A stretch of 64,000 nt of DNA from Parapristionchus giblindavisi (taxonomy: Eukaryota; Nematoda; Chromadorea; Rhabditida; Diplogasteridae). A model generated the notes under the pieces. The model was given only the letters and a program-made list of their open reading frames with translations. It searched no databases and had not been told where the DNA came from. The stretch lies in NCBI GenBank assembly GCA_943737045.1, contig CALSFV010000015.1, positions 556,501-620,500 on the forward strand, given 5' to 3'. A program made the translations under genes and the position numbers. This document shows, in pieces, positions 1-36,997 of the stretch (the stretch's first letter is position 1; every line of letters starts with the position of its first letter).

Positions 1-439
1 ATTATGGAATGGAAAACGATGATCAGGGGGATAAGAGGGATGAAGTGTTTTCTAATCGGTTGACTGATTAGTAATTGTGAAGGAAGAGGGAGATTAATGC
101 TAGTTGGTCGTTTAAGAGATGAGGAAGAAGAGGGGATAGTAGCTTGTTTAGCTATGATGAGCTGAAGATCGGAGAGAGGGGTTGGTGTAGTTGAATTGTT
201 ATTGGAAAGTGAGAGGAATATTAATGAAGATGCATGTATTAGGTAGGCTGAAAAAATTTCGAATGCAAACTTGTCTCATACTCTTGTTATTCTCAGTCAC
301 TCGTATATTCATACTAAATAGAAGTGCATCCATATCATCAAAGTGTACTTACTGTTCAGTTCTTTCTAATTGCCCATGCGAAAATGCCGTACAGTGTGGT
401 CTCTGACCGAATCTACATTTTCTTTCTCCTTTCCCCGAC

Positions 440-990
440 TGTTATGCATCGTTATATTTGCCTACGCCGTAACCCCCTCCGCCGCGTATCCGGTGCGTAA
501 TGCAGTGTTCAGAACTTGGAAAATGCACGAAAATGCGGAAAATGCTGTTCAGAAGTTCGGGTGGAAAATGCCCGAAAATGCTCGATTTTGGCTCGAAAAA
601 GATGGTTTTTAACGATTTAAAAGCGTTGAGACTCCTTGTTTCATGGAAAATAACTAAGTTAGGTCATTTGTAAAGTATTCTACTGAAACAAATATCTTAT
701 GATCCGATTTTGAGCAGTTTAAGCGAAAAATCTATGAAAATGCTTAGAAAATTCAACATAGCCAGTCCATGTTTCAAATAAACACTTATCATCAATAAAA
801 TGCGTCCGCAACACTGTTTGCAACCTATAAATGTTGATATTAAACTGAAAACCCATTGAAAAGTGCTTAAAATCATTGAAAATGAGCATTTTCTGAGCAT
901 TTTCCACCTGAACTTCTGAACAGCATTTTCCGCATTTTCTTGCATTTACAAGTTCTGAACACTGCATTAGGCAAATGTAACGGTGCATTA
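440..990. mobile_element. Fold-back (inverted-repeat) element, unclassified
   Basis: The right end (about 890-990) is the reverse complement of the left end. The word TGCAGTGTTCAGAACTTG near 500 returns inverted near 950-967, and GAAAATGCGGAAAATGCTGTTC near 533 returns inverted near 920-940. The outermost arms (TTATATTTGCCTA near 450; TAGGCAAATGTAA near 968) also pair, but the left arm has about 33 extra GC-rich bases. No transposase similarity is seen; short ORFs here are arm sequence. Target duplications were not resolved. Probably a non-autonomous DNA element. Confidence 0.6.
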
Positions 991-995
991 GACTA

Positions 996-2300
996 CGTAA
1001 ACCGAGGTGTCTAGTCGAATCCAGTACAAGGAAGGGTGTCTGAATCTACTTTGGACTCGACGACAAAGAGGCACACAGTCAATTCTAATACTCATACTTT
1101 ATTTATATCAAGTGATAACACTAGATGAAGGGATTGGCGTTCTTCAATTCCTCCGTTGGTATCGACCACCATCTCGCACAGTCAAAATCGAGCAAAACTT
1201 ATTAGCCTACTGATACATATGGGATAAGATGATGAATGGGATTAAAAGCAATAGACGATATTAAATGAAATGAGATGGGACGGAGGGTTGATTGTTGTCT
1301 ACCTCTCTATCTCTCTCTATCGCTCTATCTATCTCTATCCCTGGACTACAATTGGTGTTGTTTGTGTATGCATCATTAGAGGGAGAACAAGAAAGAGGAA
1401 GGAAGAACGAAGGGGTAATTTGTGTCAGTGTTTTCCCAGTATTCTTTCATTGGAAAATAGACTGGGTACACTCAATGGGTGAATGATTAACTGTTGGAGA
1501 TGGACTAATGTATAGGTCGAATAGTTGGGTTATCGGTTATCAAAATGCGGTCAGGTTTTTCGATTTTTGGCAAATTTTGGCTCAAAATACGGTCATGCTT
1601 GGTATATACTTTTCGACCTATGGGCTAATGAATGAAATGGATTGTGCGATATGAAGTATAGTAGATGTAGTCACGTCGTGTAGTCTCAAAATGTACTAAT
1701 GTGATGATTAATGTGATCATGAGGAAGATATATTATGGACTATAATATGTTAATGTGATCGGTGATATGGAATCATGCATCGGGTACATGGAGAAGGAGA
1801 CATTTATTTATTTAATTAATTATTTATTTATTCCATCAAATATATATTTATAAACATATTATTGGCGAGGGAAAGAGAGATTACATATAATACATGGACG
1901 GGATAACAAATAAAGAGTTTTTTTTGCTGAAAATATTGAGGTGTTTGCTATACTGATAGTGGGTGTTTTTCTTCTCTTTTTGAGTAGATCGATACAAATG
2001 GAGATGTGGGAATAGATGGACTGAAGAAAGATGGAGTATGGATTGATAGTTGGAGACGTGTGAAGATAATGTTAATTGAAGATGCATGAATACGTCTGTT
2101 GACAGAGATAATAATACAGCGCACCATTCTTTATCATGTGCTCATATCAGACCACAAACGAGATCATATCATTCTAATCGATAATCATTTACAGATCAGC
2201 AGCATCAGCATTCATCGGTAATCTCGTACCTCGTATGCAACATCTACTAGGAGGGGCTGCTCATCGAGAGAATCACTCCAATAGTACGTTCATATTCATC
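996..2300. other. Gene-free stretch
   Basis: No ORF here looks like a protein. It holds one small inverted-repeat element (1511-1622), a CT-rich run near 1300-1340 and a TTTA-rich patch near 1805-1830. Confidence 0.5.
1511..1622. mobile_element. Small MITE, 'ATAGGTCGAA' family
   Basis: The ends are inverted: TATAGGTCGAATAG on the left and ACTTTTCGACCTATG on the right. The inside reads GCGGTCAGGTTTTTCGATTTT. Related sequence occurs at about 53154-53300 and 53926-54046, so this is a dispersed family. Non-coding. Confidence 0.6.
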
Positions 2301-15700: not shown

Positions 15701-18700
15701 TGATTACGAATCAATCGATAAATGGATGAATTACGATCGATTACCAATCAATAATTGTAGATGAACGGTGATCGTGAGTTGCACGTATCCATCAATGGAA
15801 ACGTCTATCAGATGGATTTGATTGGAATGAAACAGACGAATACGATGACTGGAACGACCAGAGAACTGCAGAGGAAAGCGCCATCTCCTGTGAAGAAGGA
15901 AGGTACGGTATCGTGTTCTTGGGCATACGGTAGATCGATTGATTAGTATTGATTTTAATCTTTTTCAGCGACTCCATCATCATCAATCGATGAAGATCGT
16001 CGTCTAGTTCTTCTTCAATCAGAACCAGAGAAGATTGAGCTGGTCGCTCGTCAATTGTTCCCTGTACTGGTCGAGATAGACGGAAGTTCGGTGAGTATTG
16101 ATTGTCAGATATTGAGTACCGTATTCCCCATTCGTTACCGTAATCTTCCTCTCTCCTCAGGTTGGATCAACTCTTCGCTATGAGAGTCTTCGTGTGATGC
16201 TTCGTATCATCTGTCCCATGTCTGCCAATGTTCTACGTGGAGTACTCGCTGATCTACCTCTATCATGTCAGTCAATCAATAAATCAATATTAAAGGGATT
16301 ATTATATATTGATTGATATTTGATAAAATATAATATAAATTATTTGATAAATTAATTAAATTAATATTGATTACAGGTCACATTGCATCAGCTCTCGCCT
16401 CTACTCGCAGTAAGGATGTTTGTGTGGTGGTAGCCGCCCTTCAACTCGTTCATATGTTACTCGAGAAGTTATCCGATGTCTACGTACCGCTCTTCCGAAA
16501 GGAAGGTGTCGCCCATGAGGTACGGTATCACGCACTATGAATATGTATCAAGAAATGATTTAATTGTCTCTTCAGGTGGCCAAACTGGCAGCAATCTCAT
16601 CACTGTCATCAGCAGCCTCATCACCAGCTACCGTATCCGTGGCTACGTCATCATCAGCCACATCGAGTGCATCACGATCGGCTCCATCTTCTGGTGTGGC
16701 ATCACCAGCACTCGGAGGCACTCCTGATGAATCGATGGGCATGAAGACTAGAGGAGCAAGGAAGACGGGAGAACGAGCGGCTGCTAAGAGAGCCAATGCA
16801 GCCCTGTCTGCTGCATCGTCATCTACAACAGCTACAGCAGCATCTAATGATGCTGATGGAACTCCATCAGGATCTCCATCGGGAGCTGGAGCTTCGTCCT
16901 CATCGTCAGCTCCGATTACTCGTAATAATCGTCATCGCAAGCGTACTTCTCCTGAGAGTTCACCATCGTCATCGTCGTCACAGAATAAGGAAAAGTCGAG
17001 AAGGAAATCGTCATCGTCCAACTTCTTATCCGCTCTGAGACTACCCTCATTCCGTGGTTCACCTTCTAGCTCTCCTTCATCGGGTACGGTATTATTATTG
17101 ATTGATTACTGTAGGATTACGGTAGATTGGGTCATACTAATGTATGATGATTGCAGCAACGGGTTCTCCGCCGTCCCAAGGCACTCCTCCTCCTGGTGGA
17201 TTGACAGTGACGTCATCATCCATGTCGACATCCAACACTACGACAACGACGACGACGAGTTCATCATCGAGTATGCAGATGTTCTACCAATCAATGAGTA
17301 TATATTATAGTAGATGATATCTATCAATCAATAATGCATGCGTGACAGTGTGTCAATATCCTAATTGTCAAATCAATCAATCAATCGATAATTAGAGCAT
17401 GGAATGAATGAAGATTGATTATGACACTCTGTTTGCTTATCATCTTATCTATCAATATATGATTACGTTTATGTTCTTTGTTCAGATTCCGCTCTACTCA
17501 ACGGTACATCATCTAGTATTCGTTCTCGTACCATTGGAGGAGTATCCTCTGCTTCTACCCAATTGTCCAATTCACAGAAGGAGAAGTTGCGATCATGGAT
17601 CAAGAAGGAAGGTACGGTATTGATTGATACGGGATGGTCATTGATGTATTGATTGATTATTGATTGATTGATGGATTATTGATTGATTGCAGCTGAACTA
17701 TTGATGAAGACGTATCTGGGCGACAGTGCAGCGTCATCAGCCATGAATTCACTGGAGCAGACTGCCGAACGATTGATCGATGATAAGAAGGAGAATGAAC
17801 AATTGGATATATTGAAGATGTTCTATGATCTACTCAAGAAGGAGAATGTATCGGCGTTTGAGATGAAACAGTCGGGAATGATCTCAGCTCTGCATAAGTA
17901 TCTCACCCATGAAGGATCGTCCATTCAACCTGAGAGAATGACACGACTTCATCGATTCGCCAACGTCTTCATGCATATTCATCCTAATGAGGTACAGATC
18001 GATTGATCTACTTGAGATGATGATTATTGATTGATTGATTGATTGTAGAATCATCGTCCAACCGGAGTGGACGGATCATTCGATGTATTCGATGCTCTGG
18101 TCCAGAAAGTCATCTCGAGTGTCGCCCTTCTCGAGCAATTCCAGGTATAATAGATTTGTCTAAAGAATTCGGGGAATACGAATCGCAGAGAAATCTTTAT
18201 TGTAGTATTGAATAGATAGTGAAACGTGAACTCGCGGGGTGAACTTGATTGGCTAGTCACTTCTCTATTTATTTATTTAAAAAATTTTTTTTTATTTCCA
18301 GGTATCGGATATGGGTGGAATAGCAACGGGTGGATCGGGTGGATGTCTACGTGGCGCTCAAGCTCTGCGATTCTTCCAGAGTCATCAAATACGGGTACGG
18401 TAGCCAGTTCGATGGGGCGAACTATGATGTTTCTATCGTTATAGTGTAATCTTCGTCGGCATCCCGGTTGCCGTGAATTGATGGATTGGAGACACGGCCA
18501 TGGATCGATTAAGGTCGATCCACTCACCAGCATCTCTGCCATCGAGAGGTACGGTACTTGTATTGATTGATTGATTGACTGATTCCACTGGTTACAGTAT
18601 GATAGTGAGTATTGATTGGTTGACTGATTCCCCTGGTTACAGTATGATAGTGAGTATTGATTGATTCCCCTGGTTAGAGTATGATAATTATATTTATAGT

Positions 18701-27957: not shown

Positions 27958-28778
27958 TGTATAGTAGATCCATTATTGATTGATAATTATTGTGTTCCTT
28001 TCATATATTAGCATAATTGTCATTCAAATCCCCTTGCAGTTTGTACATAACGTCCCTAATTACTCTCTCTATCTATCACTAATTTATTCATTATGCAAAT
28101 GCTATTACACGTGTCCTTTCTCTCTATGATTTGTGTTAGTTGTTAGTTAGTAGTCAGTTGTGAGTCAGTTGGTTAGTTCTTAGTAGTCGTCTCCCTCGCT
28201 AGTACTTTGCCTAGCTTCGTTGTTGATTGTGAACTGTAGATAAAGTTCTATGAATTATTAAATCATCTTCGTCTTCTCCACATTAGACGAGGTCGTCAAC
28301 CTCATCTGTATCTGTTCTTCTTCTTCGTCATCTTACATAGTCATCGTCTGATCTCTGGTCTTTGATCTTCGTCTCTTCTCGGTCTAGTCCATTATTATCC
28401 GTAGTTGCGATTGCGGATCCTTACAGTTGCGATTGTAAGAAGTATACTTGCGAGTATAGAGTTGTGGTTGCGATCACAAGCGCGTAGTTGCGATTACGTG
28501 TCCTTACAGTTGCGATTGTAAGAAGTATACTTGCGAGTATAGAGTTGTGGTTGCGATCACAAGCGCGTAGTTGCGATTACGTGCAAACTTGCAGTTGCGA
28601 TTGTGAGTATTGTTAGTTTACTTGCGAGTAATCTTTTGACTTTTGGTTGCGATCATTAGTAAAAGGGTGTCGTCCCCCTGTTTACGTGTACTTGGTAGCA
28701 GTCAATAAGCTATCAAACATTAGCAAACCGTGACAGTTTGCTATCAAGTACAGGTATCCAGGATCGGCATTCCTTACA
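27958..28778 (+). repeat. 5' LTR (821 bp)
   Basis: Same length as the 3' LTR, and no base difference was noticed on reading. It contains the TTGCGA hairpin row (28397-28659), including an 82-bp direct repeat (from about 28421 and 28503). Near its end, ACTTGGTAGCA and TTGCTATCAAGT can form a further hairpin (about 28689-28750). Confidence 0.95.
28397..28659 (+). promoter_or_regulatory. Row of twelve short hairpins with constant core TTGCGA
   Basis: The core occurs twelve times, nine as GTTGCGAT and three as CTTGCGAG, always between self-complementary arms that differ from hairpin to hairpin: TTACA/TGTAA, TATA/TATA, TTGTG/CACAA, CGTA/TACG, ATCCG/CGGAT. Changing stems around a fixed loop suggest selection for folded RNA or DNA. 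As RNA the apex can be U(UGCG)A, a UNCG-type tetraloop. The role is unknown: packaging, RNA stability, transcription and protein binding are all possible. Confidence 0.8.
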
Positions 28779-28800
28779 TGGGGGCCAAGCCGGGTCTAAA
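28779..28800 (+). promoter_or_regulatory. Candidate primer-binding site of the LTR element
   Basis: The sequence starting TGGGGGCCAAGCCGGGTC lies directly after the 5' LTR. A TGG start is expected for pairing with a tRNA 3' CCA end. The matching tRNA was not identified. Confidence 0.5.
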
Positions 28801-28851: not shown

Positions 28852-29822
28852 ATGGAGATACAAGGAGGAAGAACATGGGATGATGTCAAATGGCGTAATG
28901 AGGCTGTGGATAGCCTTACCATATTGGATAATCTCAAAGAGAATGGATTGTGTGGACGTGAATTAAGAGATGTTTCTTCGGAGTTGGAGTTCCATACTGA
29001 GAGGTTGTATGGAGATGATTCTGATCGTTTGGATGAAAAGAGAGTTAATGTATTTCTCGGAATATATGGAAAGGACAAGAAATTTGGAAAATTATTCAGA
29101 TTCTGGTATGAAGGCGCATCATATATGGAATTGAAGGAATATATGTTATATGGAACAGAACCACCGAATCATTATCGATTAATAACGTGTCGATTTTGTT
29201 GTGGCACGGATCACAAGATTTTGCAATGTCCTGCTTTTTGGGAGCGTAAGGGAGGAGATGATGAAGTGGATACGAATATATGTGAAGTACAATGTGTGGA
29301 TAAAGTATGTGTAGAGACTAATGATACCCATGCTGGAGGAGGAGCTCATGATGAAGCCCAAGACGCTCCATGTAGATTAAGTGGAGGATTACAATGGCAA
29401 GTGTGTTTCGATAATGGTGTTCAGGTAAATACGGTTCAGGATACGGCTAAGGATGTCGTAAGAGACGCCGTTGAGGATAATGTGGGCACGGATAGCACTG
29501 ATACTCAGAGAGATCAGGTGAAGACCGTTGAAGCCACAGTTTCGGAAGTGTATTCTTTTGTAAATAAGTGGTGTAAAGGAGTAGTTGTCACGAAATGGAA
29601 GAAACCGTGTATTAAATCGAAGCAAAGTGCCTTGGAGTCTATGGTTATGGAGTTGAGCGTCGAAAAGGATGAGGTCATTATTGGAAGTAATGGGAATCGT
29701 ATAAGTGAATTAGGAGGAAGTTTATCTAAGGGAGAAGATGTACATGAACATATCGTTGAACAAGAGAGTATTATTGAACAGGAGAGCATTATCAAAGAGG
29801 ATGTTATTATTAAAGAAGAGTA
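28852..29822 (+). pseudogene. gag-like protein of the LTR element, 5' part (interrupted)
   Basis: Starts at ATG 28852. It has an acidic/basic N-terminal domain, then one CCHC zinc knuckle (CRFCCGTDHKILQC, spacing C-X2-C-X4-H-X4-C, codons near 29190-29230), the nucleic-acid-binding motif of Gag nucleocapsids. A low-complexity Glu/Lys/Ile tail begins about 29740. The frame continues about 20 codons into the inserted palindrome and stops at 29883. With the insertion and one target copy removed, the frame runs on into 34865-35831. No other domain is recognised. Confidence is high for the zinc knuckle and moderate for calling the protein Gag. Confidence 0.8.
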
Positions 29823-30720
29823 TAGTGGTGCACACTCTCCTTTACTACAGGCGTGTCCCCGCATGTCCCCGCGTGTCCCCTGATGTCCCCTGGCCGATTT
29901 CTCCACAAATAAATTTCTGAAAAATATTTTCGTAGTATCGATTAAGAGACCGGCTCGGTAAGACTCGAGCATTTTGACCCCCTGCCGGACATTCGCGAGG
30001 ACTTTCGATCTGGCCCTCAATACTTTCATCATAGACACATACCGGGGGGAGACCGATGAAGGTTATAGTGAAAATGCCCTTAGGCTCAAACCCGGCTCAC
30101 ATATGTCGCATAAAATAAAAAATTGAAAAATTCATAACTTTTCAATCGTGATAGCTAGCAGCGTTATTTCTTTTTATTGGTGAATAACATGTCATGCGCC
30201 CTTATAAACACAGCTGAGCAGTAATTTCATATCGTTCTGGATATGTTTTTTCGTGTATGATTTTCCGATTTTTCCTCTTCCATCCTCGTTGAAGAGAGAC
30301 GGCAAGCATTGACATAGTACATATTGTAGCCCTGACACTTCTGTACATGATGGTCACATTCCCTTGGAAATCCAACTTTTCTGAAGCATCGAGAATTGCA
30401 ACTGAATGTGAGATATGTGTAATTTGCAAAAATCGAAAATTAAATTTCTTGTAAATCGCAAGAGAGTAGGTAGCTTTATTATGCCTTTTTACTTGTAGTG
30501 ATGCGCCTACACAGAAAAAATATTCAAGTAGACTCAGACTAAATTTTTAAAAATTTTTAAAAATAATTATTTTATTTTTATTTTTTTCAACCCTGACATT
30601 GAGTCGACCGTCAAGGCAAGTTGATTCATAGGGCGGATGGTAGCTGATGCATGTCCGTTTGCGAAAACAACTGCCACGAAAAGAATCGTCGTTTCGCAGA
30701 TCTAGAATTTATTTTTTTAA

Positions 30721-31393
30721 TTATCAAACTTGAATATTTATATGTTTCTTTCACATAAATCGGTTGGAAGGTGGCGTATGGCAACCAAAGCTGTACCATT
30801 GTTATCAGTAGGAGTGTACTGTACTGCACTACCGTAACCGTCAGGAATCACGAACTAACTTTTTTTCAGTCGACCCATGATTCACAACCATGACCCCGGG
30901 TTCATGGTTGAGAATAGCTGAGGTCGAAAAATTCATGATGATCCCAGACCAAATACTATTTGGCAATATATCAACAGTGAGCCAACTTCTAGTTTTCTGG
31001 ATACCGTAACTCAAAATACAGTAATCTAGTTACCGTACCCTATAATAATGTGGTGAAATTCTCGGAAAATTCAAGTGCGTGCCTTACAATTACTGTAGTT
31101 TGGGTTACGGTATCCAGAAAACTAGAAGTTGTCTCACTGTTGATATATTGCCAAATAGTATTTGGTCTGGGATCATCATGAATTTTTCGACCTCAGCTAT
31201 TCTCAACCATGAACCCCGGGTCATGGTTGAGAATCATGGGTCGACTGAAAAAAAATCAGTTCGCGATTCCTGACGATTATGGTATTCAAGTACAGTTCAC
31301 TCCCACTGATAACAATGGTACAGCTTTGGTTGCCATACGCCACCTTCCAACCGATTTATGTGAAAGAAACATGTATTTTTTCAAGTTTGATAA
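30721..31393. mobile_element. Element b (673-bp hairpin), copy 1
   Basis: Long imperfect inverted repeat (arms about 300 bp, loop about 90 bp), from TTATCAAACTTGAA to TTCAAGTTTGATAA, flanked by TTAA at 30717-30720 and 31394-31397. Inside it, short palindromes around CATGACCCCGGGTTCATG occur. It sits where the a and a' arms of E would otherwise meet in a TTTTTTTAAAAAAA palindrome, so it probably inserted at that TTAA. Non-coding. Confidence 0.75.
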
Positions 31394-31397
31394 TTAA

Positions 31398-33614
31398 GAG
31401 ACCGGCTCGGTAAGACTCGAGCATTTTGACCCCCTGCCGGACATTCGCGAGGACTTTCGATCTGGCCCTCAATACTTTCATCATAGACACATACCGGGGG
31501 GAGACCGATGAAGGTTATAGTGAAAATGCCCTTAGGCTCAAACCCGGCTCACATATGTCGCATAAAATAAAAAATTGAAAAATTCATAACTTTTCAATCG
31601 TGATAGCTAGCAGCGTTATTTCTTTTTATTGGTGAATAACATGTCATGCGCCCTTATAAACACAGCTGAGCAGTAATTTCATATCGTTCTGGATATGTTT
31701 TTTCGTGTATGATTTTCCGATTTTTCCTCTTCCATCCTCGTTGAAGAGAGACGGCAAGCATTGACATAGTACATATTGTAGCCCTGACACTTCTGTACAT
31801 GATGGTCACATTCCCTTGGAAATCCAACTTTTCTGAAGCATCGAGAATTGCAACTGAATGTGAGATATGTGTAATTTGCAAAAATCGAAAATTAAATTTC
31901 TTGTAAATCGCAAGAGTAGTAGGTAGCTTTATTATGCCTTTTTACTTGTAGTGATGCGCCTACACAGAAAAAATATTCAAGTAGACTCAGACTAAATTTT
32001 TAAAAATTTTTAAAAATAATTATTTTATTTTTATTTTTTTCAACCCTGACATTGAGTCGACCGTCAAGGCAAGTTGATTCATAGGGCGGATGGTAGCTGA
32101 TGCATGTCCGTTTGCGAAAACAACTGCCACGAAAAGAATCGTCGTTTCGCAGATCTAGAATTTATTTTTTTAATTATCAAACTTGAATATTTATATGTTT
32201 CTTTCACATAAATCGGTTGGAAGGTGGCGTATGGCAACCAAAGCTGTACCATTGTTATCAGTAGGAGTGTACTGTACTGCACTACCGTAACCGTCAGGAA
32301 TCACGAACTAACTTTTTTTCAGTCGACCCATGATTCACAACCATGACCCCGGGTTCATGGTTGAGAATAGCTGAGGTCGAAAAATTCATGATGATCCCAG
32401 ACCAAATACTATTTGGCAATATATCAACAGTGAGCCAACTTCTAGTTTTCTGGATACCGTAACTCAAAATACAGTAATCTAGTTACCGTACCCTATAATA
32501 ATGTGGTGAAATTCTCGGAAAATTCAAGTGCGTGCCTTACAATTACTGTAGTTTGGGTTACGGTATCCAGAAAACTAGAAGTTGTCTCACTGTTGATATA
32601 TTGCCAAATAGTATTTGGTCTGGGATCATCATGAATTTTTCGACCTCAGCTATTCTCAACCATGAACCCCGGGTCATGGTTGAGAATCATGGGTCGACTG
32701 AAAAAAAATCAGTTCGCGATTCCTGACGATTATGGTATTCAAGTACAGTTCACTCCCACTGATAACAATGGTACAGCTTTGGTTGCCATACGCCACCTTC
32801 CAACCGATTTATGTGAAAGAAACATGTATTTTTTCAAGTTTGATAATTAAAAAAATAAATTCTAGATCTGCGAAACGACGATTCTTTTCGTGGCAGTTGT
32901 TTTCGCAAACGGACATGCATCAGCTACCATCCGCCCTATGAATCAACTTGCTTTGACGGTCGACTCAATGTCAGGGTTGAAAAAAATAAAAATAAAATAA
33001 TTATTTTTAAAATTTAAAAAAAATGTAGTCTGAGTCTACTAGTATATTTTTTTCTGTGTAGGCACATCACTACAAGTAAAATGACATAATAAAGCTACCT
33101 ACTACTCTTGCGATTTACAAGAAATTTAATTTTCGATTTTTACAAATTACACATATCTCACATTCAGTTGCAATTCTCGATGCTTCAGAAAAGTTGGATT
33201 TCCAAGGGAATGTGACCATCATGTACAGAAGTGTCAGGGCTACAATATGTACTATGTCAATGCTTGCCGTCTCTCTTCAACGAGGATGGAAGAGGAAAAA
33301 TCGGAAAATCATACACGAAAAAACATATCCAGAACGACATGATATTACTGCTCAACTGTGTTTGTAAGAGTGCATGACATGTTATTCACCAATAAAAAGA
33401 AATAAAAGTCCTAGCTATCGCGATTGAAAAGTTATGAATTTTTCAATTTTTTATTTTATGCGACATATGTGAGCCGGGTTTGAGCCTAAGGGCATTTTCA
33501 CTATAACTTTCATCGGTCTCCCCCCGGTATGTGTCTATGATGAAAGTATTGAGGGCCAGATCGAAAGTCCTCGCGAATGTCCGGACCATGCTCGAGTCTT
33601 ACCGAGCCGGTCTC
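31398..33614. mobile_element. Inner copy of TTAA element E (2217 bp)
   Basis: Complete: arm a (31398-32169), core b (32174-32846), arm a' (32851-33614), flanked by TTAA at 31394-31397 and 33615-33618. Long terminal inverted repeats of about 765-772 bp. Its a-b part differs from the outer copy by about one base in 1452, and its a' arm has the same length as the outer a'. It is placed exactly at the TTAA between b and a' of the outer copy. Confidence 0.82.
32174..32846. mobile_element. Element b, copy 2 (inside inner E)
   Basis: Same 673 bp as copy 1, flanked by TTAA at 32170-32173 and 32847-32850. Confidence 0.75.
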
Positions 33615-34386
33615 TTAAAAAAATAAATTCTAGATCTGCGAAACGACGATTCTTTTCGTGGCAGTTGTTTTCGCAAACGGACATGCATCAGCTACCATCC
33701 GCCCTATGAATCAACTTGCTTTGACGGTCGACTCAATGTCAGGGTTGAAAAAAATAAAAATAAAATAATTATTTTTAAAATTTAAAAAAAATGTAGTCTG
33801 AGTCTACTAGTATATTTTTTTCTGTGTAGGCACATCACTACAAGTAAAATGACATAATAAAGCTACCTACTACTCTTGCGATTTACAAGAAATTTAATTT
33901 TCGATTTTTACAAATTACACATATCTCACATTCAGTTGCAATTCTCGATGCTTCAGAAAAGTTGGATTTCCAAGGGAATGTGACCATCATGTACAGAAGT
34001 GTCAGGGCTACAATATGTACTATGTCAATGCTTGCCGTCTCTCTTCAACGAGGATGGAAGAGGAAAAATCGGAAAATCATACACGAAAAAACATATCCAG
34101 AACGACATGATATTACTGCTCAACTGTGTTTGTAAGAGTGCATGACATGTTATTCACCAATAAAAAGAAATAAAAGTCCTAGCTATCGCGATTGAAAAGT
34201 TATGAATTTTTCAATTTTTTATTTTATGCGACATATGTGAGCCGGGTTTGAGCCTAAGGGCATTTTCACTATAACTTTCATCGGTCTCCCCCCGGTATGT
34301 GTCTATGATGAAAGTATTGAGGGCCAGATCGAAAGTCCTCGCGAATGTCCGGACCATGCTCGAGTCTTACCGAGCCGGTCTCTTAA

Positions 34387-34739
34387 TTAGTCTATCTGAG
34401 TTCTGCTAAACGCCATGTAAAAGAAATATATAGCTTGATTCTGTACAGTATTTTGGGAAAATCAAGTTACACGATCTCTGTTTATTTTGTATACTCTTTC
34501 TTTTAAATTTTCTACCTTTCGGTTTGATTGATGTAGTGAACGTGGTTTCTGTTTATTGGCTTCATGCATGATCGAAATTAGGGAAAAAATATACACTATC
34601 GGCAAAAGGAAAAAAAATTAAAATGTGAAATATTAAAAAAATAGACCCTCGCCCTATAAATCTATTTTACTATAAAACTATACACAGTCAAGCAATATAT
34701 TTCTTTTACATGGCGTTTAGCAGCGCTCAGATAGACTAA
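34387..34739. mobile_element. 353-bp TTAA-flanked MITE (c)
   Basis: Inverted ends of about 45 bp (TTAGTCTATCTGAG and CTCAGATAGACTAA, extending through CTAAACGCCATGTAAAAG), flanked by TTAA at 34383-34386 and 34740-34743. AT-rich interior, no ORF. Confidence 0.82.
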
Positions 34740-34864
34740 TTAATCGATACTATGAACATATTTTTCAGAAATTTATTTGTGGAGAAATCGTCCAGGGGAC
34801 ATCAGGGGACACGCGGGGACATGCGGGGACACGCCTGTAGTAAAGGAGAGTGTGCACCACTGTA

Positions 34865-35831
34865 TATTGTCGAGCAAGAGATTATTATTAATGAGGAAGA
34901 TATTATTAAGGAGAAGGATATTGTTAAAGAGGAGTATATCGTTGAAAGGGAGAGCACTGTTAATGAGAAGGATATTTTTAAAGAAGAGGATATTATTAAG
35001 AAAGATATTAAAGAAGATAAGGATATTGAAGAAAAGGATATTGTTGAAGAGTTTGAGGACGCTGTTAAGAAGAAAGATATTGCTAAAAAGGAGAATGTTA
35101 TTAAGGAGGAGTATATTATCGATCAAGATGATTTGGAGAAGAAGGATGCTATGGAATACATGAATGTTAAGGAAAAGGATATTGTTGAGCAGAAGGATGT
35201 TGTGAAGGAGGATATTGTTGAAGAGGAGTACATCGAGAAGGATATTGTTGTGAAGGAGGATATTGTTGAAGATAAGGTCAAGAAGGATAAGAAGGTCATG
35301 GAAGTTGCTAATAATATAGCTGCTGCGAATGGATTGAATAGTGTTATGGGAGATGGAAAGAATGTTAGTAAGGAGGAGATCGTAAAGGGAAATTTGGATG
35401 GACTTGTTAGTGGAGATGGAAAGAAGGTTAGTGAGGAGATCGTGAAGGAGTATTTGGAAGGTCGAGTGTCAAAGATGGATACAGGGGCTGTGTCGTGTGA
35501 GATTGTGTTGGATCATGATGTGAAGGTACAGCAATTGGATCGAAGGAAAGTGGTCCCAAGAGAACCGGATAAGAATTTATGGTCGGTCCTGTCAGATGAT
35601 ATGAAGGTGGAGCAATTGGATCGAAGGAAGGTGGTACCAAGAGAACCGGATAAGACGTTGTCGTTGGTACTGTCAGATGATGTGGAGGTTGAACAACTGG
35701 ATCGAAGGAACGTGGTCCCGAAAGAACCAGATAAGGAGTTGTCATCGGTCTTGTCAGGAGGGGAGCCTATATCATTCACGAAGGAAGGAAGCTGGAAACG
35801 AGTTTCACATGCACGAGAAGGACAACAATAA
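34865..35831 (+). pseudogene. gag-like protein of the LTR element, 3' part
   Basis: The open frame actually begins upstream in the palindrome arm (34752); the element's own part starts after the insertion. It encodes a long, highly charged, low-complexity region built from degenerate KDIVKEE-type units (about 34870-35280). Three tandem repeats of about 28 residues follow, each carrying QLDRRKVVPREPDK or a close variant (about 35525-35760), and the frame ends at 35831. It is the continuation of the frame at 28852-29822. No catalytic motif. The Glu/Lys repeats may form coiled coil or disordered spacer. Whether this half is still translated is unknown. Confidence 0.75.
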
Positions 35832-36176
35832 TGTCGCCCGTCGTCATTCATCATATTCATTAATTGTTCATTTTGTTTTGTATCATACTTATTCATATTA
35901 TACTTCACCTTTTTCATATTATTATCATCACCAACCCCATTATCAACTACCGTAATCTCATTTACATTTCAATCACCTACAACCGTATCGTCGTCGTTGA
36001 TTATCTCTTTATGCGCAAGGCATACAATCGTCTCGTCGTCATTCATTATCACGTTATGCGCAAGGCATACTCATTCGTCGTCATGAATCGTTGCAGCAGC
36101 TAGAAGTCAAGCCATATCGCCATCCCCACCGTCATCAAGATTGAATGCGAGGACGCATTCTTCGAAGGAGGTGGCA
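35832..36176 (+). other. Internal non-coding tail of the LTR element
   Basis: About 345 bp between the gag-like stop and the 3' LTR. It contains a direct repeat (TTATGCGCAAGGCATAC at about 36010 and 36054), CGTCGTC-rich runs, and a purine-rich stretch at 36163-36174 that is the probable polypurine tract. Confidence 0.6.
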
Positions 36177-36997
36177 TGTATAGTAGATCCATTATTGATT
36201 GATAATTATTGTGTTCCTTTCATATATTAGCATAATTGTCATTCAAATCCCCTTGCAGTTTGTACATAACGTCCCTAATTACTCTCTCTATCTATCACTA
36301 ATTTATTCATTATGCAAATGCTATTACACGTGTCCTTTCTCTCTATGATTTGTGTTAGTTGTTAGTTAGTAGTCAGTTGTGAGTCAGTTGGTTAGTTCTT
36401 AGTAGTCGTCTCCCTCGCTAGTACTTTGCCTAGCTTCGTTGTTGATTGTGAACTGTAGATAAAGTTCTATGAATTATTAAATCATCTTCGTCTTCTCCAC
36501 ATTAGACGAGGTCGTCAACCTCATCTGTATCTGTTCTTCTTCTTCGTCATCTTACATAGTCATCGTCTGATCTCTGGTCTTTGATCTTCGTCTCTTCTCG
36601 GTCTAGTCCATTATTATCCGTAGTTGCGATTGCGGATCCTTACAGTTGCGATTGTAAGAAGTATACTTGCGAGTATAGAGTTGTGGTTGCGATCACAAGC
36701 GCGTAGTTGCGATTACGTGTCCTTACAGTTGCGATTGTAAGAAGTATACTTGCGAGTATAGAGTTGTGGTTGCGATCACAAGCGCGTAGTTGCGATTACG
36801 TGCAAACTTGCAGTTGCGATTGTGAGTATTGTTAGTTTACTTGCGAGTAATCTTTTGACTTTTGGTTGCGATCATTAGTAAAAGGGTGTCGTCCCCCTGT
36901 TTACGTGTACTTGGTAGCAGTCAATAAGCTATCAAACATTAGCAAACCGTGACAGTTTGCTATCAAGTACAGGTATCCAGGATCGGCATTCCTTACA
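36177..36997 (+). repeat. 3' LTR (821 bp)
   Basis: Matches the 5' LTR at an offset of 8219 bp; no differences were noticed by eye. It carries the same hairpin row at 36616-36878. Confidence 0.95.

Follow-up and report, generated by a model that had tools for sequence, protein, structure and literature searches.

Two lineages of LTR retrotransposons in the genome of the nematode Parapristionchus giblindavisi share rows of covarying hairpins, in which the arms vary freely and one short loop recurs from hairpin to hairpin, and the loop type changes between rows. Our tentative interpretation is that such a row, situated in the 5' leader, works at the RNA level as a multivalent docking array that elements can exchange, and that its loops would be read by shared, probably host, proteins. 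The window, i.e., the whole stretch of 64,000 nucleotides that was analyzed, contains one of these elements, and all comparisons described below were made within this one genome (251 Mb, 703 contigs).

The window element is an LTR retrotransposon, as is evident from its paired LTRs with TG..CA ends, target duplication, primer-binding site, and polypurine tract (Table 1). The two LTRs are 100% identical, and the 4-bp target duplication ATAA flanks the element on both outer sides. The primer-binding site immediately follows the 5' LTR in all six elements of the window family examined, and the polypurine-tract-like sequence has an identical 3' end in five other elements examined. A single long gag-like ORF was found in each window-family element examined; in the window copy, it is interrupted by an insertion that is absent in five other elements examined. 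Within the insertion, extended repeats of about 1456 and 772 bp occur in either orientation, and a 556-bp piece of another copy, L021, is similar to its inner units. The gag-like ORF encodes a CX2CX4HX4C zinc knuckle in the window copy, L009, L012, and L013, and no such knuckle was seen in L011 or L015. No Pfam match to a Gag domain was obtained for the gag-like ORF (window copy; long ORFs of L009, L013, and L015), no Pfam match to pol domains was obtained for the window ORFs or the three long ORFs of L009, L013, and L015, and no relatives of the gag-like ORF were found in viral contigs. Judged on its long ORFs, the window element is without pol genes of its own and thus does not qualify as autonomous. 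It is a possible non-autonomous element of the TR-GAG type, a class whose members combine LTRs with a recognizable Gag domain only. Rfam gave no match within the window at gathering scores. In one copy of the family, L015, three LTRs and two internal regions are arrayed at a spacing of 3229 bp. Elsewhere in the window, the ORF at 17683–18003 matches the engineered protein 4rzp (E 1.5e-7), which we take to be of the armadillo type, and is probably an exon of a host gene.

Table 1. Features of the window, and protein domains encoded by the gypsy element L073
Feature	Position	Strand	Remark
5' LTR	27958–28778	+	821 bp, TGTATA...CTTACA
ATG-free stretch	28253–28777	+	525 bp, taken as transcribed 5' leader (R/U5)
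Row of UUGCGA hairpins	28397–28659	+	12 hairpins, 8 distinct
Hairpin 1	28397–28418	+	ATCCGTAG/TTGCGGAT
Hairpin 2	28420–28439	+	CTTACAG/TTGTAAG
Hairpin 3	28443–28458	+	TATAC/GTATA
Hairpin 4	28462–28479	+	TTGTGG/TCACAA
Hairpin 5	28480–28501	+	GCGCGTAG/TTACGTGT
Hairpins 6–9	28502–28584	+	tandem duplication of the hairpin 2–5 block, 83-bp period
Hairpin 10	28587–28608	+	ACTTGCAG/TTGTGAGT
Hairpin 11	28618–28631	+	TTAC/GTAA
Hairpin 12	28644–28655	+	TGG/TCA, weak
Primer-binding site	28779–28794	+	TGGGGGCCAAGCCGGG
Gag-like ORF, first part	28852–29823	+	CX2CX4HX4C zinc knuckle
Insertion inside gag-like ORF	29824–34861	.	5038 bp, inverted ends (AGTGGTGCACACTC...), GTAT-flanked
Gag-like ORF, remainder	34862–35831	+	matches residues 322–627 of intact L013 ORF
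Polypurine-tract-like sequence	36164–36176	+	GAAGGAGGTGGCA
3' LTR	36177–36997	+	second row copy at 36616–36878
Armless TTGCGA repeat	26175, 38972, 39224, 44160, 44413, 62076, 62325		
DUF7083	L073:2726–6913, 68–153		
Protease	L073:2726–6913, 331–390		below curated cut-off
RT	L073:2726–6913, 558–683		
RNase H	L073:2726–6913, 746–880		
Integrase	L073:2726–6913, 997–1157		

An earlier note on this DNA had described, in each LTR, twelve perfect hairpins with TTGCGA at their tips, and most of that description stands. The hexamer occurs twelve times on the + strand within 248 bp (28405–28652) and again at 36624–36871, i.e., within the reported second copy of the row in the identical 3' LTR; the whole window has 58 occurrences on both strands, compared with 25.9 ± 4.5 in shuffles. 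The contiguous pairs at the twelve cores, with G·U counted, number 8, 7, 5, 6, 8, 7, 5, 6, 8, 8, 4, and 3, and their sum of 75 was reached in none of 1000 shuffles of the inter-core segments (mean 8.5, maximum 27), so the pairing is not due to chance. At the remaining 34 TTGCGA sites in the window, 0–3 flanking pairs were counted (0 or 1 in 31 cases). All twelve cores are present, but only eight hairpins are distinct; the other four derive from a tandem duplication (period 83, 2.4 copies, 93% matches) that is missing from the 8-hairpin copies, of which there are many. To count as perfect, the arms require that G·U pairs be allowed, which makes sense for RNA of the + strand and not for DNA, and the last two hairpins are weak, with 4 and 3 contiguous pairs. 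As claimed, the base pair beside the core switches between G·U and C-G, and the arms differ yet remain self-complementary: in the core-aligned set of eight distinct hairpins, 90.6% of cells pair, as compared with 68.7% when the 3' letters are redealt and 36–53% when they are slid. For a joint set of 14 hairpins, comprising these eight and six UUGCGA hairpins of the second family described below, the respective values are 86.5%, 65.3%, and 32–45%, with changes on both sides at 8 of 9 pairs. A separate dispersed repeat carries a single TTGCGA before 'AAGT..ACCAACC', without hairpin arms.

The genome contains at least 45 matches to the LTR and at least 34 to the row, fragments counted, and the number of hairpins per copy is 12 in one subfamily, 8 in another, and 3–4 in broken copies. 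Of 24 aligned LTRs, one for each of 18 elements was used to assess diversity and variable sites. The 3-hairpin copies L022–L025, the fragments L030–L037, and the first LTR of L012, which is broken, were left out; two of these have a damaged core (one mutated core in the first LTR of L012, and TAGCGA in L033). Nucleotide diversity is 0.012 in the row, 0.113 upstream, and 0.061 downstream, i.e., the row block is about nine-fold less variable than the LTR upstream of it and five-fold less than that downstream. Relative to the 8-hairpin reference, variable sites amount to 0/48 in cores, 11/98 in stems, and 8/37 in linkers, and to 181/461 upstream and 28/117 downstream of the row; the cores differ from linkers (P = 0.0008) and from stems (P = 0.016), and the difference between stems and linkers is not significant (P = 0.16). 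Five stem-change events retain pairing, including one compensatory double change (L017), and eight disrupt it, one of them by a 1-base deletion; 11 of these 13 events are each confined to one element. The earlier note had named arm changes that break pairing as often as they keep it as grounds for refutation, and by this test the window family speaks against a selected structure. A sister row with the UGCUUCGUGAG loop is shared by L081–L084. Its six stems comprise 56 pairs, and 224/224 cells are paired; of the eight variable pairs, five have changed on one side and three on both sides (compensatory), and none is broken. Redealing the letters gives 98.7% ± 0.5, with 14/500 trials as high, and sliding gives 31–54%. 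Moreover, in each of nine rows tested, the core-flanking stems exceed those of 1000/1000 segment shuffles. Thus, the invariant cores of the window family and the intact pairing of the sister row support well the selected RNA structure that had been suggested.

A genome scan for three TTGCGA with gaps of 10–25 returned 201+184 places, as compared with 6+28 for a reversed control. About 100 of these places were listed, and they represent the window family, plain tandem repeats, and one different element, termed family 2, which has 6–8 UUGCGA hairpins with other arms, including an A-U pair adjoining the core. Family 2 belongs to Ty3/gypsy, and its LTRs measure about 240 bp; in L073, one ORF covers gag, protease, RT, RNase H, and integrase in the corresponding order. 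The ORFs of other copies are shorter, and the elements with other loops mentioned next were read to gag and the start of protease. The gypsy row is located outside the LTR, downstream of the primer site and ahead of the gag ATG. Other loops are found in relatives whose LTR ends are similar and whose leader flanks are near-identical, namely UUUGGYAA in L074 and L075 and CUUUGUG in L076. Within the UUUGGYAA rows, the loop varies somewhat (UGGC, UGGU, and some UGUU), and L074 has one A·C mismatch where L075 pairs. The last hairpin keeps the outer stem ACTTGTA/TACAAGT between families 2 and 3, while its core-adjacent pair changes from G·U to U-A and its loop from UGCG to UGGC; the remaining hairpins of the family 3 row show the new loop type too. 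In the CUUUGUG rows, several cores have only 2–4 flanking pairs, and in L076 and in L077, described below, further copies of the heptamer lie in the linkers, where the flanks pair little; it may be read single-stranded, in hairpins and linkers alike. The leaders of L074, L075, and L076 have GTAAGT just 3' of the primer site, which is not found in the UUGCGA leaders; it is a possible 5' splice site, in which case the row could be an intron in the gag mRNA.

Loop type and Gag sequence do not change together. Compared with the Gag piece of L073, that of L078 with a UUUGGYAA row is identical at 330/336 residues (98%; 51/53 in the zinc-knuckle region) and that of L079 with a CUUUGUG row at 291/335, whereas L070, which has UUGCGA as does L073, matches it at 316/335. 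Since L073 and L078 are closer than the two UUGCGA copies, the loop does not follow the knuckle, and reading of the loop by the element's own NC knuckle is not supported by the Gag pieces of the three families compared. The earlier note had further suggested that, as RNA, the tip can be a UNCG-type tetraloop (UGCG). Stable tetraloops of this type are closed by C-G; the UGCG loop is closed by U-A in 14/14 UUGCGA hairpins compared, and related rows use UGGY, CUUUGUG, CUGUGUG, or UGCUUCGUGAG instead, so UNCG stability is rejected as the point of the structure.

Rows with five loop types occur in the window lineage. Exact matches to the primer-site pattern ACATGGGGGCCAAGCCG are found at 15 places in the genome, namely seven of the window family, two with CTTTGTG rows (L077 on contig C1, and C19), and six new ones, and an LTR-borne row is located upstream of it in 15/15 cases (C19 by position only). 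These rows represent UUGCGA, UUUGGUAA (L085), CUUUGUG (L077, read, and C19, by position), CUGUGUG (L080), and UGCUUCGUGAG (L081–L084). L077 matches the window element in the primer site (18 bp) and the gag start (70 bp, 97%), and it shows no further match to the window LTR. Its row agrees with that of the gypsy leader L076 at 96% identity across 111 bp and at 88.5% across 122 bp, despite different LTRs and primer sites. Likewise, L085 contains CGAAGGCTATCGC, a piece of gypsy leader. Four of the five loop types are common to both lineages: UUGCGA, UUUGGYAA, and CUUUGUG as read, and UGCUUCGUGAG by position. One BLASTP comparison of the window lineage's Gag-like ORF, taken from L015, with the gypsy polyprotein of L073 showed no similarity (best E 0.31).

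A genome search with the L013 ORF gave 98 matches. It hit 13 of the 14 primer-site contigs, the exception being C320 with the L085 locus, as well as LTR-row loci such as C319, C369, C48, and C9; the rows at C214 and C221 were without a match. Weak matches fall within long open frames at C8:106967 (2380 aa, E 2.6e-7) and C44:208898–210034 (1395 aa, E 1.2e-6 and 2.3e-5), and both frames sit between pairs of LTR-borne CTTTGTG rows, which suggests that the window lineage may have autonomous members. Row pairs 8–9 kb apart were observed at C8:104201–112130, C44:202537–211692, C11:433539–442073, and C221:373414–381448. Two copies of the L013 ORF, C246:612570–614066 and C340:41656–43329, have no row among the matches listed.

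In the gypsy lineage, the position of the row relative to gag was assessed across the genome. The gag-start pattern, with up to two mismatches, occurs at 112 places, 100 of which were listed and scored for UUGCGA, UUUGGYAA, CUUUGUG, or UGCUUCGUGAG rows. The row places were a selection of one or two per locus with satellite-like places omitted, and restoring the omitted ones changed nothing on the contigs checked. An upstream row is present at no fewer than 62 of the 100 listed gag starts, and a row downstream or on the other strand at 0/100; on contigs C1–C43, which the row listings cover, a known row lies within 600 nt upstream on the same strand at 24 of 27 gag starts listed. Rows at three more gag starts were read directly: C90 (L075), C651 (L074), and C238:122244 (L076). 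The gag starts at C6:666899, C30:40015, and C3:1164590 have none of the four searched rows upstream, and perhaps further loop types are present there. For five UGCUUCGUGAG rows that lack a second, LTR-like copy, a gag start lies 162–230 nt downstream in every case; these gypsy leaders, known by position only, had been predicted from the LTR-borne UGCUUCGUGAG rows. CUGUGUG rows occur at 24 places (0 in the control), none of them near the 100 listed of 112 gypsy gag starts. It had been predicted that each loop found in LTRs would have a counterpart in gypsy leaders; this was thus borne out for four loops, one of them by position, and failed for CUGUGUG.

The stems of the rows favor the sense strand, with 40 G·U vs. 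6 A·C in 38 hairpins from 7 rows, which are not independent of each other (four hairpins each were taken from CUUUGUG and CUGUGUG rows, and weakly paired cores were omitted). A dyad in double-stranded DNA was judged unlikely in view of the asymmetric core, the same direction of all twelve cores, and the prevalence of G·U. The stretch 28253–28777 of the window contains no ATG and 10 CAT, while shuffles contain 8.0 ATG on average and none in 1/1000 cases; we read it as the putative transcribed 5' leader. ATG is also absent in 10/10 gypsy leaders examined (276–409 nt) and between 242 and 805 of L077. Exceptions are found in 4 of 24 window-family LTRs (one ATG past the first core in L016, L019, and L029, and one 74 nt upstream of that core in L026), and L085 has one ATG at position 77 of its 501-bp piece. 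In ten rows, the folding-energy z of the + strand ranges from −1.3 (L076) to −6.5 (L081), and in five of them the − strand is more negative. For the 12-hairpin row, z is −5.8 (+) and −2.2 (−) without a span limit, and −3.0 (+) and −2.3 (−) with spans up to 60. Folding energy alone is weak evidence, because the unlimited fold includes long-range pairing across duplicated blocks and z is less negative at short span.

Among other explanations, a packaging signal is the most serious one: the Gag zinc knuckle would bind the loops and select the RNA for particles, and non-autonomous elements such as that of the window would bear the row of the autonomous gypsy element to enter its particles. We consider this possible, at about one chance in three. 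The gypsy row occupies the place between primer site and gag that is usual for retroviral packaging signals, with structured RNA, by computed pairing, in the leader nearby; elements that yielded no ORF other than a gag-like one bear the same loops, in one case in the near-identical row of L077; and all gypsy loops examined contain U-U-G. There is also precedent, as BARE2 is described as entering BARE1 particles (PMC3735527), and 4–6 stem-loops with GGG are attributed to alphaviruses in the account of their packaging signal (PMC8233893). However, near-identical Gag goes with two loop types, the window lineage's own Gag-like ORF lacks similarity to gypsy Gag, the L013-like stretches at C8 and C44 lie in long frames of their own between CTTTGTG rows, and CUGUGUG has no gypsy leader among the listed gag starts. 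Because near-identical Gag has two loops and loops are common to both Gag lineages, we favor a reader that the lineages share, probably a host protein, and would place it slightly ahead of packaging by own Gag; as a counterpoint, the lineages could share loops because the particles of one lineage carry both.

An RNA element that acts without a loop-reading protein, through translation control (ribosome loading or internal entry) or loop-loop dimerization, would fit the location of the rows before gag and the absence of AUG, but a uniform loop on free arms should be unnecessary for either function, and dimers formed by loop-loop contact would not be general, given that neither CUUUGUG nor UGGY loops are self-complementary; we regard this explanation as improbable. 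Still less probable are protein-binding sites at the DNA level. The insulator of Drosophila gypsy, with twelve clustered Su(Hw) repeats in its 5' untranslated region, is reported to act as DNA (PMC2493044); in the present rows, the covarying arms around an asymmetric core, the single orientation of all twelve cores, and the G·U excess of the stems point to RNA. The least credible explanation is that of tandem repeats without selected structure, homogenized by duplication and conversion. Tandem duplication did produce 4 of the 12 hairpins, row length varies between copies, and the stem changes of the window family, which break pairs more often than they keep them and do not set stems apart from linkers, would agree with it. 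Nevertheless, core, stem, and linker differ at the scale of single bases, wholly different arms still pair, L081–L084 keep every paired cell, and conversion would not spare loops while preserving pairing.

Returning to the docking array, the element RNA would fold in cells into 4–12 hairpins that, together with some linkers in the CUUUGUG rows, present one short loop repeatedly. An RNA-binding protein would read these loops and gain avidity from the row. The putative readers would be proteins available to both lineages, probably host proteins, and would take the genomic RNA to some stage on which replication depends, such as export, translation, or delivery to assembly sites. A loop change across the whole row would then call on a different reader, and rows would pass between elements by recombination. 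Thus, we propose, as a working model short of an even chance, that the row is a swappable RNA address code: the loop picks the carrier protein, rows switch loops as a whole, lineages trade rows, and non-autonomous elements join the traffic of autonomous ones.

To our knowledge, there are few LTR retrotransposons for which it is understood how their RNA is selected for export, translation, or packaging. The present rows constitute a natural experiment in one genome, with five loop types, close relatives whose main difference is the row, and a row common to otherwise unrelated elements, by which the reader could be found by RNA pull-down and its role tested by loop swaps. Repeated hairpin tags serve as laboratory tools, and these natural arrays of one loop on varied stems resemble them and could supply new tag-reader pairs. 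Rows with a constant loop are not categorically new, since small RNA viruses have dispersed packaging stem-loops with a common loop motif and phage coat proteins bind repeated loops. For LTR retrotransposons, in agreement with the earlier note, which knew of no described LTR with such a row, none was found in the open-licence literature among the matches listed.

Several known systems resemble the rows in part. Retroviral LTRs have stem-loops in R and U5, which the account in PMC2664473 presents as few separate structures and not as a row with a constant loop. In the fungal GalEa elements, the Copia Conserved Hairpin Site directly follows the 5' LTR; as described, it is one hairpin, its loop is the least conserved part, and the primer site is absent, whereas the present rows have many hairpins, a constant loop, and a primer site (PMC5445492). 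BARE2 offers a parallel in that an element lacking functions retains the packaging signals of an autonomous one; BARE1 and BARE2 are treated there as subfamilies of one element (PMC3735527), whereas here the elements have the row in common but not the LTR, the primer site, or Gag. The Drosophila gypsy insulator shares with the window row the twelve repeats of one motif and the gypsy-type leader; according to its description, these are DNA sites for Su(Hw) (PMC2493044), in contrast to covarying hairpins with sense-strand G·U. The alphavirus packaging signal, outlined as 4–6 stem-loops with GGG loops in the coding region of an RNA virus (PMC8233893), also repeats one loop, whereas the present rows lie in untranslated leaders of LTR retrotransposons and combine 4–12 hairpins with a family-dependent loop and a putative reader.
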